From: Guyparkeria halophila | GTDB taxonomy: Bacteria > Pseudomonadota > Gammaproteobacteria > Halothiobacillales > Halothiobacillaceae | Assembly: GCF_034479635.1 (NCBI RefSeq) | Contig: NZ_CP140153.1 | Location: forward strand, 69,501 to 133,500 | Direction of reading: 5' to 3' | Length of the DNA: 64,000 nt | Shown: in pieces, positions 28,752 to 52,345 of the stretch | Position numbering within the stretch: the first letter of the stretch is position 1 | How the letters are laid out: every line of letters begins with the position of its first letter | The notes under the pieces: generated by a model | What the model was told of the DNA's origin: nothing | Seen by the model: the letters and a program-made list of their open reading frames with translations, nothing else | The model's database searches: none | Position numbers and translations under genes: made by a program

Positions 28752-29569
28752 TCGTTGGATTCCTCGTTAGCGGGCCGTTGCTTGCTCCAACACTCATTGG
28801 GACTAACCGCCAAAAGCGCATGCACAAACACCCAAAGGTAAGCTACAGACACCTATAACTTCGGTCAAGGCCTCGGCGCCCAACGCGGATGACGCTCACT
28901 GCTCGCTTGTCGGTCGGCGGCGCACGCCTTAGCCAATGAATATCAATTTAATAGATCACAGAAGCCCCCATCCAATCGGCCATATTTTTCAAATCATTTC
29001 TCATGGAACATGAAACGCGATGCTTCTGTCTGAAGAGCCATTGGCGACATTGGCCGACATGCGTGTGGGCTTACCCCGTGAACTCTTTGAGGGTCCGCGC
29101 AAAAACGTGTGGAGGAAGGAATCTGAATCTAACTCTTTGAATTTGTTTTGCATCAACCAAGTGACAAAGCGGCCCCATTCCCCCTCGGGCTTATCCATTT
29201 TCCTCGCAATCGCCCGGACCCAAGTTCAGTGAGACGGGCAAGTTGAAAGCCTCCCGCCAGCCTGAAACAACGAAACCAGAGCCAACAGTGGAGATTGCAT
29301 TTGCGCATTCACCACCCACACCTTGCGCCGTGCCTTCCAGCTGGTAAGTTGCCGGGACTGGCGGGCAAGGATATCGAACTGCACCCGACGGCGACCCACC
29401 AACCGTAAGGGAAGCCCGCAGGGCCAAGGCGCCGAGGTGTCCTTCTTTTCGCCCCTTTTCTTGGAGAAGCAAAAAAAGGACTCGCGCGCAGCCTCGAAAG
29501 CCCGTCGAGACCAACGACACCCTTCAGGCGCGCGAAAACAGGGCAACAAGCCAGGAAAAGGTCGCCACC
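28752..29569. other. About 820 bases without a confident gene, right edge of the AT-rich island
   Basis: This stretch upstream of the methylase holds only short frames, such as a 65-codon minus-strand frame at 29001-29198 and an overlapping 70-codon plus-strand frame at 29020-29232. Neither has recognisable motifs or a good ribosome site. It probably holds the operon promoter and perhaps gene remnants. Composition returns to core-like from about 29.25 kb, where a dispersed stem-loop repeat copy lies (29420-29484). Confidence 0.5.
29420..29484 (+). repeat. Dispersed stem-loop repeat, copy 1 (imperfect)
   Basis: It matches the copy at 52046-52110 over about 65 bases, starting AGGGCCAAGGCGC and including CCTTCTTTTCGCCCCTTTTC. 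In this copy the hairpin arms have decayed (CCCCTTTTCTTG against CAAAAAAAGGAC). Both copies lie in intergenic DNA in the same orientation. Confidence 0.7.
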
Positions 29570-51767: not shown

Positions 51768-51899
51768 GTGGTCTCCAATCGGAATCGACGCCGTGAAAGT
51801 TGTCAGCGTCGCAAATGAGCGTGGCAAGGGGCGCCGAGGGATTGAGACCCTTCAAGCACCCCGGCATGGCAACGGAGGGCGGATTCCCCTTGTGCCTTG

Positions 51900-52011
51900 C
51901 CTCGCGAGCGTCCGGTGGCCGGAGCGGAGCGACAGGGACGTCGCTCCGAGGTTCGCCGCGACACGACGTCGCGTCGAACCGGCCCCGATCAGCCACCGGA
52001 CGCTTGCGAGG
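51900..52011. repeat. Large cloverleaf-like inverted repeat
   Basis: A 20-base arm, CCTCGCGAGCGTCCGGTGGC (51900-51919), pairs with its inverse at 51992-52011 (19 of 20 match). Inside it are two further hairpins: GGAGCGAC-AGGGAC-GTCGCTCC, and GGTTCGCCGCGAC with its partner GTCGCGTCGAACC around ACGAC. Together they could fold into a three-stem structure of about 112 bases. Confidence 0.75.
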
Positions 52012-52012
52012 C

Positions 52013-52040
52013 CGGGTGTCTCGGTATCGAGACACCCGGG
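52013..52040. repeat. Perfect 12-bp hairpin
   Basis: CCGGGTGTCTCG and CGAGACACCCGG pair perfectly around a GTAT loop. It lies directly after the larger inverted repeat and has no T-run on either strand. Confidence 0.7.
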
Positions 52041-52045
52041 CCCGA

Positions 52046-52110
52046 AGGGCCAAGGCGCAGGGTGCCCTTCTTTTCGCCCCTTTTCTTGGGCAAGCAAGAA
52101 AAGGGGCTCG
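52046..52110 (+). repeat. Dispersed stem-loop repeat, copy 2 (intact hairpin)
   Basis: It shares about 65 bases with the copy at 29420-29484. Here the hairpin is perfect: CCCCTTTTCTTG (52077-52088), loop GGCAAG, CAAGAAAAGGGG (52095-52106). It may serve as a transcript-end or mRNA-stability element. Confidence 0.75.
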
Positions 52111-52225
52111 TCCGCCCTTCGACAAGGGTGGGAAAGAACAACCCCGCGCCACCAGGCGGGCGAAACGACTCCCGCCGCCCGATTCCAGCCACCCTGAGCC
52201 TCAGGGAACAACTGGAACCCCAAAA

Positions 52226-52260
52226 CCAAAAAGGCCGGGACCCCAAACGGGGCCCCGGCC
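52226..52260 (-). terminator. Terminator of tRNA-Pro
   Basis: GGCCGGG (52233-52239) and CCCGGCC (52254-52260) with inner CCCC/GGGG pairing form a long stem; on the minus strand it is followed by TTTTTGGTTTTG. Confidence 0.8.
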
Positions 52261-52268
52261 GGGGAATT

Positions 52269-52345
52269 TGGTCGGAGTGGCAGGATTCGAACCTACGACC
52301 CCTACGTCCCGAACGTAGTGCTCTACCAGGCTGAGCTACACTCCG
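52269..52345 (-). tRNA. tRNA-Pro (anticodon CGG)
   Basis: Reading the minus strand, CGGAGTG pairs with CACTCCG to close the acceptor stem, a D-arm (GCTCAGCCTGGTAGAGC) and T-arm (GTTCGAATC) are normal, and the anticodon loop TTCGGGA carries CGG. The CCA end is encoded (complement of 52269-52271). It lies 23 bases downstream of ispB on the same strand and may be read through from it. Confidence 0.95.

Follow-up and report, generated by a model that had tools for sequence, protein, structure and literature searches.

What is the dense run of inverted repeats that lies between an ABC-F type ATPase gene and the tRNA-Pro gene in the 2.45 Mb, single-contig genome of Guyparkeria halophila? Within the window (the whole 64,000-nucleotide stretch of contig NZ_CP140153.1 that was analysed), a sequence-only reading had noticed these repeats at 51900-52106 and had offered three explanations for them, a non-autonomous mobile element, a structured RNA or a fold-back recombination hotspot. 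Our analysis supports the first two as one and the same thing: a repeated unit carries an RNA-like fold. We consider it probable that the locus holds a copy of a non-autonomous, dispersed mobile element whose plus strand encodes a structured, triplex-capped RNA with predicted CsrA-binding sites. What carries this reading is multicopy dispersal, site polymorphism, base pairing with covariation, strand polarity, covariation of a third strand and a link between GGA-bearing heads and csrA.

By searching the genome by BLAST with 251 bases of the element, we obtained 31 matches of about 68-90% identity, corresponding to about 20-30 dispersed copies. Nine of the ten other genomes of the genus gave 6-30 matches each (the tenth is 64% complete), and matches were also found in some other genera of the same family. 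At the orthologous tRNA-Pro site, genomes G001 and G003 carry a tail-to-tail pair, and G000, G002 and G007 carry single copies with mixed features. A copy between two resistance-nodulation-division (RND) efflux genes, at the cus-operon site, is present in G000 alone, the site being empty in six relatives. At the dapC-dapD site, a head-to-head pair is found in most species and none in G005; the A and B halves of this pair are in reversed order between G000/G010 and G002/G006, which suggests inversion or independent insertion. More generally, 49 of 58 neighbouring copies are oriented head-to-head. Further from Guyparkeria, genome G136 has six units of ~545 bp and G582 has units of ~870 bp, both with common ends (sharp ones in G136) and unrelated flanks. 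The terminal inverted repeats are of the GTTTCGCACGCC type in Guyparkeria and of the GGTGTCGTTTTCGGCC type in G136, and consist of about 27 bp, TTGATACCGGACTGGCAAGTTTGTGTG, in G582. Thus many copies, common ends, unrelated flanks and both occupied and empty sites were found, as for miniature inverted-repeat transposable elements (MITEs), which supports the idea of a non-autonomous mobile element. For the proposed recombination hotspot the signs are indirect, namely the opposite A/B order at dapC-dapD and the hybrid single copies at the tRNA-Pro site.

The element resembles MITEs and the REPINs or bacterial interspersed mosaic elements (BIMEs) in being short, dispersed and arranged in inverted pairs, and the compact units examined have no transposase gene of their own. 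It differs in that each half, ~280-400 nt long, has a conserved multi-domain RNA fold, and in that no mobilising enzyme was found. A plasmid- or phage-borne repeat was rejected, as no plasmid or phage match to the element was found and the pattern of its P5 hairpin (described below) occurred in just 2 stretches of 2.9 million viral contigs. At the cus site (G000 C1:45798-46070, L015), the copy is inserted between HlyD-like and CusA-like RND genes of one operon and the upstream gene has a changed end. Of the 49 head-to-head pairs, eleven are wide and have one or two diverse genes inside; some may be chance neighbours. These genes encode a DpnII-like nuclease, an ion channel, an AAA/OLD-like ATPase, NYN and DUF269 proteins, a Y1 transposase and unknowns; in pairs L116, L231, L221, L136, L140, L123, L160 and L238 they are possible gene cassettes. 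In the middle of one head-to-head pair of G000 (L017, 1551505-1551600), we also noticed an inverted pair (TTTCGCGAGCGGGGCTCGCTCCCAC) resembling repetitive extragenic palindromic (REP) sequences.

The repeats themselves are real and lie where they had been reported: a 21-nt arm pair (51899-51919/51992-52012, 95% match), a perfect 9-bp hairpin (51925-51948), a palindromic hairpin near 51957-51973, a hairpin with 17-nt arms (52007-52044, 88%) and a perfect 13-bp hairpin (52076-52107). The folding energy of the 241-base region was -164.5 kcal/mol versus -106.8 +/- 4.8 for dinucleotide shuffles (z -12.0, 0/200). The feature exceeds the box first drawn around it, since its closing stem P1 begins at 51886 and its final conserved stem stops near 52166. 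We then aligned 39 copies of the genus to a consensus fold with a pseudoknot, and modelled the 3' domain as a covariance model, R1, with 160 distinct matches. The parts of the window copy are as follows.

51886..52166, plus strand: whole element copy, a solitary half-unit, delimited by alignment with genus copies and with orthologous tRNA-Pro loci
51884..52027, plus strand: match to Rfam TwoAYGGAY (RF01731), 56.6 bits against a gathering score of 43
51886..51899, plus strand: P1 5' strand CCCCTTGTGCCTTG, partner 52051-52062 (consensus helices 1-2, 97-98% of cells paired, compensatory changes)
51899..51919, plus strand: P2 5' arm of the long stem, the 20-base inverted repeat of the sequence-only reading (helix 3, both-side changes at 14/17 pairs)
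51925..51948, plus strand: P2a hairpin, loop AGGGAC (51934-51939), predicted CsrA-type GGA site (compensatory changes at 7/9 pairs; loop GGA in 39/39 copies)
51950..51979, plus strand: P2b hairpin, loop ACGAC in the window copy, where CGA replaces the usual GGA (GGA in 29/39 copies, CGA in 10/39)
51992..52012, plus strand: P2 3' arm (inverted-repeat match and covariation alignment)
52012..52039, plus strand: P3 hairpin CCGGGTGTCTC..GAGACACCCGG (compensatory changes at 9/10 pairs)
52040..52050, plus strand: P4 hairpin GCCCGAAGGGC (covariation alignment)
52051..52062, plus strand: P1 3' strand (covariation alignment)
52063..52067, plus strand: S1a TGCCC, pseudoknot strand, partner GGGCA in the P5 loop at 52088-52092 (97.9% of cells paired, covarying variants)
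52068..52074, plus strand: L1 TTCTTTT, predicted to run as third strand in parallel with AAGAAAA (52096-52102) (class-by-class match of third and purine strands)
52076..52107, plus strand: P5 hairpin GCCCCTTTTCTT-GGGCAAGC-AAGAAAAGGGGC (99.6% of cells paired, compensatory changes at 7/12 pairs; R1 match at 52058-52109, 65.1 bits)
52108..52166, plus strand: P6 stem TCGTCCGCC..GGCGGGCGA and end CGAAAC, corresponding to the inverted repeat that terminates composite units (same place in genus copies; unit end in G136)

In the genus alignment 98.4% of cells are paired and both sides have changed at 47 of 79 pairs, so that the covariance check proposed for this locus came out in favour of a fold. The covariation score was 0.384 compared with at most 0.089 for slid structures, and the slid controls reached at most 47% paired cells. 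As had been argued from the density of repeats, a simple terminator can be dismissed: the feature is too large and no T-run follows the P5 stem. The 112-base "cloverleaf-like" shape, in contrast, is not tRNA-like; the fold is a three-way junction bearing two side hairpins, and tRNA-Pro was the only tRNA call.

Which strand folds can be read from the mismatches. G-U pairs outnumber A-C mismatches by 108 to 9 in the genus alignment, and by 43 to 7 in P5 across all lineages. Therefore, the plus strand is the one that folds as a single-stranded nucleic acid, most simply as RNA. An alternative is that the structure works as DNA, a folded single-stranded site for recombination or transposition like REPINs moved by RAYT or integron attC, in which case the GGA loops and the third strand would be protein contacts or an intramolecular DNA triplex. 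The composite units are indeed two-fold symmetric with inverted-repeat ends, one IS200-like Y1 transposase gene lies between the halves of a pair in Methylomonas (L116), and the Guyparkeria genome has four Y1 transposase genes. We nevertheless judge this alternative unlikely, because G-U is tolerated 12 to 1 over A-C (though G-T is less bad in DNA too), because the GGA loops track csrA and fit the site of an RNA-binding protein, as shown below, and because no element copy was found beside the own-genome Y1 genes at the three loci tested.

The 3' domain is an H-type pseudoknot whose pyrimidine loop is predicted to fit the purine strand of P5 by the rules of major-groove triples. A core pattern of the P5 hairpin occurs in 15 of 369 gammaproteobacterial genomes (0 for the reversed control) and, among GTDB contigs, in >120 stretches, some of them from Selenomonadaceae, Flavobacteriia and Desulfobulbus. 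In 78 of 87 pattern matches, the exact parallel third strand predicted from the copy's own purine strand lies upstream, the third strand being absent from the pattern. It is preceded by a strand that pairs and covaries with the P5 loop (TGTCC/GGACA, TGCCC/GGGCA and TGGCC/GGCCA). In the R1 set, the purine and third strands agree class by class: AAAGAA/TTTCTT in 88/93, AAGAAA/TTCTTT in 22/22, AAAAGA/TTTTCT in 13/13, AAGAGA/TTCTCT in 9/10, AATAGA/TTGTCT in 5/5 and AAAATA/TTTTGT in 2/2. Thus, the rules U.A-U, C.G-C and G.U-A are followed across at least seven stem variants, G standing opposite the U-A inversion in the AATAGA/TTGTCT and AAAATA/TTTTGT classes. G.U-A is a known triple. A third strand arising as a mere mirror repeat, of the kind that forms H-DNA only, was ruled out since it would place A opposite the T-A inversion, where G was found in 7/7. 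Also, G-U is absent (0) from the seven triplex positions of P5 versus 43 in the outer stem. The third-strand share in the R1 set is partly circular as R1 includes the pyrimidine-rich consensus of this strand; this circularity does not affect the class-by-class match or the pattern search that preceded R1. As one class dominates, the shuffled third-strand control was only modestly lower on average (5.48 vs 5.91), with a maximum of 5.55 in 200 shuffles. One pattern match, L155, was set aside as chance since every other part was missing.

Pseudoknots of the H-type with major-groove triples are known in the telomerase-type and SAM-II-type. There, as in the element, Loop 1 pyrimidines run parallel to the purine strand of stem 2. 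The sequence is unrelated, however, and the element has a longer run with a predicted 6-8 triples, has G opposite U-A inversions and would belong to a bacterial repeat RNA. No Rfam family covered the domain in the loci of 18 relatives, bar one TwoAYGGAY head, nor in 12 further loci, and the P5 hairpin sequence was not found in the literature searched. R1 detects the domain in 48 of 166 gammaproteobacterial genomes, that is in 46 of 164 genera (about 28%; E <= 0.001), and in 62 of 299 Pseudomonadota genomes (E <= 1e-4); it is also present in Selenomonadaceae, Bacteroidota and Desulfobacterota. In Methylomonas (L115, L116, L121 and L151), a possible second pseudoknot (CGCGG..TCGGT..CCGCG..ACCGA) follows P5 in place of the P6 stem.

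The other end of the fold, formed by P2, P2a and P2b, matches TwoAYGGAY RNA (RF01731) above the Rfam cut-off in the window copy and at 15 places of the genome in all. Among chosen relatives 10/13 passed the same cut-off versus 0/14 control genomes. TwoAYGGAY RNAs (Weinberg et al. 2010, PMC2864571) have been reported from the human gut, gammaproteobacteria and Clostridiales. Like our element, they have a long outer stem and, next to each other, two hairpins whose loops read (A)NGGA(N). The Rfam entry describes the head alone, whereas here the head is a module of a longer predicted RNA with P3, P4 and the 3' triplex pseudoknot; moreover it occurs in multicopy paired mobile units, and the same 3' domain also carries other heads. 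One of these has a conserved TGTTTGAGCG..CGCGAGTT and a CCGAGCATCGCAG..CGAGAAGCGCAGG stem, k-turn-like, and was seen in L103, L162, L168, L172, L175, L176 and the G136 units. One of the six G136 units (L247, 1426-2034) contains an extra module of two GGA hairpins in a head otherwise without GGA, as though a CsrA-type module had been inserted as a piece. Could the TwoAYGGAY match be an accident of long helices, the element being an unrelated palindromic repeat? The outer stem of the covariance model is poorly conserved, and weak matches to VA RNA and microRNA families (such as MIR8788) also appear at the locus; together with P36 and SNORA57, all of them fall under the cut-off and were rejected. 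We find an accident very improbable and already largely refuted by the 15 copies and the relatives that pass, by the position of the loop GGA, conserved in 39/39 copies, and by the Selenomonadaceae copies (from gut and rumen genomes, one a named TwoAYGGAY source), which have the same 3' domain.

The loops 'ACANGGANGU' fit the generally known binding consensus of CsrA, and csrA is present in the Guyparkeria genome. Loop 1 reads ANGGA(C/A/G/T) in 39/39 genus copies and loop 2 AGGAN in 29/39; the window copy keeps AGGGAC and has ACGAC as the other. Upstream of the 3' domain, GGA lies in predicted hairpin loops in 27/28 Guyparkeria copies, 77/128 other, mainly gammaproteobacterial, copies, 10/13 Selenomonadaceae and 0/16 Bacteroidota copies, and the complement TCC, taken as control, was rare. 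In parallel, csrA is absent from 9/9 Bacteroidota genomes and from Salinisphaera, and present in 4/4 Selenomonadaceae. By genome, GGA heads were found in 26/35 with csrA versus 2/13 without (p = 5e-4). These two are incomplete assemblies (73% and 87%), and G131, a csrA-less gammaproteobacterial genome that is 100% complete, is without GGA heads, as is the complete, csrA-less genome of Salinisphaera (G409). Two marks of a CsrA-sequestering small RNA (sRNA), hairpin-loop GGA sites and csrA in the host, were found. As in CsrB, CsrC and RsmX/Y/Z, which sequester CsrA/RsmA, the GGA is in a hairpin loop closed by AC/GU; these sRNAs have many sites in one or few genes, whereas the element would offer two predicted CsrA sites per RNA in many dispersed copies. 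TwoAYGGAY had already been proposed as a CsrA-binding RNA by Gardner and Eldai (PMC4333381).

Together, these data suggest how such an element could work. The usual unit would be made of two head-to-head RNA cassettes, which in Guyparkeria are a type A and a type B. The two RNAs would point away from a short centre, and the 3' end of each would coincide with an inverted-repeat end of the unit. If made, each RNA would comprise a closing stem, a long arm with two GGA-loop side hairpins (the TwoAYGGAY head), two small hairpins and the 3' pseudoknot, whose pyrimidine loop would lie as third strand in the P5 major groove. One CsrA dimer may dock on the two GGA hairpins, with many copies jointly acting as a CsrA sponge; alternatively, CsrA may protect or tune the element's own RNA. 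The triplex might shield the 3' end or serve a mobilising protein as recognition site, and a transposase acting in trans would presumably move the unit.

Several observations weigh against this proposal. First, single-stranded DNA could in principle adopt identical folds. Second, visual inspection of six copies from G136, seven from G582 and the cus site revealed no clear target-site duplication, and we found neither a mobilising enzyme nor a recurring transposase among the genes inside wide pairs. Third, the csrA link is partly phylogeny, 9 of the 13 csrA-less genomes being Bacteroidota, and GGA heads are absent from many gammaproteobacterial copies in genomes with csrA. Fourth, the surroundings of the window copy showed no sigma-70-like promoter, and the copy itself stands alone, runs antisense to the genes on either side and keeps just one of its two GGA motifs. 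Being single, short of one GGA and without a promoter-like site, it may be a relic.

The neighbourhood of the window copy bears on another explanation, in which the RNA is not an independent sRNA but works in cis, in a 3' or 5' untranslated region, to stabilise or terminate adjacent mRNAs, the triplex being a block to exonucleases. Copies are intergenic and some adjoin terminators, and a triple helix can protect an RNA end, as it can in other RNAs. The tRNA-Pro gene (52269-52345) and the ABC-F gene are both on the minus strand, antisense to the element. The element therefore lies beyond the tRNA 3' end, with a terminator-like hairpin (52233-52260) between them, and it stands "before tRNA-Pro", as had been written, in plus-strand coordinates but not in the sense of the tRNA. 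Such an orientation argues against a cis-acting module, as does the fact that in head-to-head pairs one copy is antisense to any flanking gene, and Weinberg et al. judged TwoAYGGAY not to be cis-regulatory (PMC2864571). We rate this explanation slightly below the DNA one, as rather unlikely.

Returning to a mobile element that encodes a structured RNA, it is quite possible, without being probable, that the Guyparkeria units represent a cross-phylum mobile class: head-to-head pairs of structured RNA genes with a common 3' triple-helix pseudoknot outside Rfam, whose heads would be exchanged by host (CsrA-binding hairpins where CsrA is present, other heads elsewhere) and whose halves would at times enclose a passenger gene. 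The full combination of mobile repeat, CsrA-type hairpins and triple-stranded end is described as a whole in no database searched; the literature searched yielded no mobile CsrA-sponge repeat, and neither a study of Alcanivorax sRNA nor a paper on a Methylosinus transcript showed a link to the element. TwoAYGGAY, an RNA of unknown function since 2010, would here become the exchangeable head of widespread repeated mobile elements, giving a named explanation for unannotated intergenic repeats in many genomes. This raises the questions of whether mobile elements feed a global regulator via dispersed sponges, of what a triple helix contributes when it caps a bacterial repeat RNA, and of what moves the units.

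Two minor observations complete the picture. The window contains a second, decayed copy with a degenerate 5' half:

29330..29545, plus strand: decayed copy, 3' domain at 29433-29483, end GGCGCGCGAAAAC (R1 42.3 bits and sequence)

In a Selenomonadaceae genome, a RAGATH-18 RNA (Rfam RF03064; L107, 2046-2107, minus strand) lies ~700 bases from an element copy.
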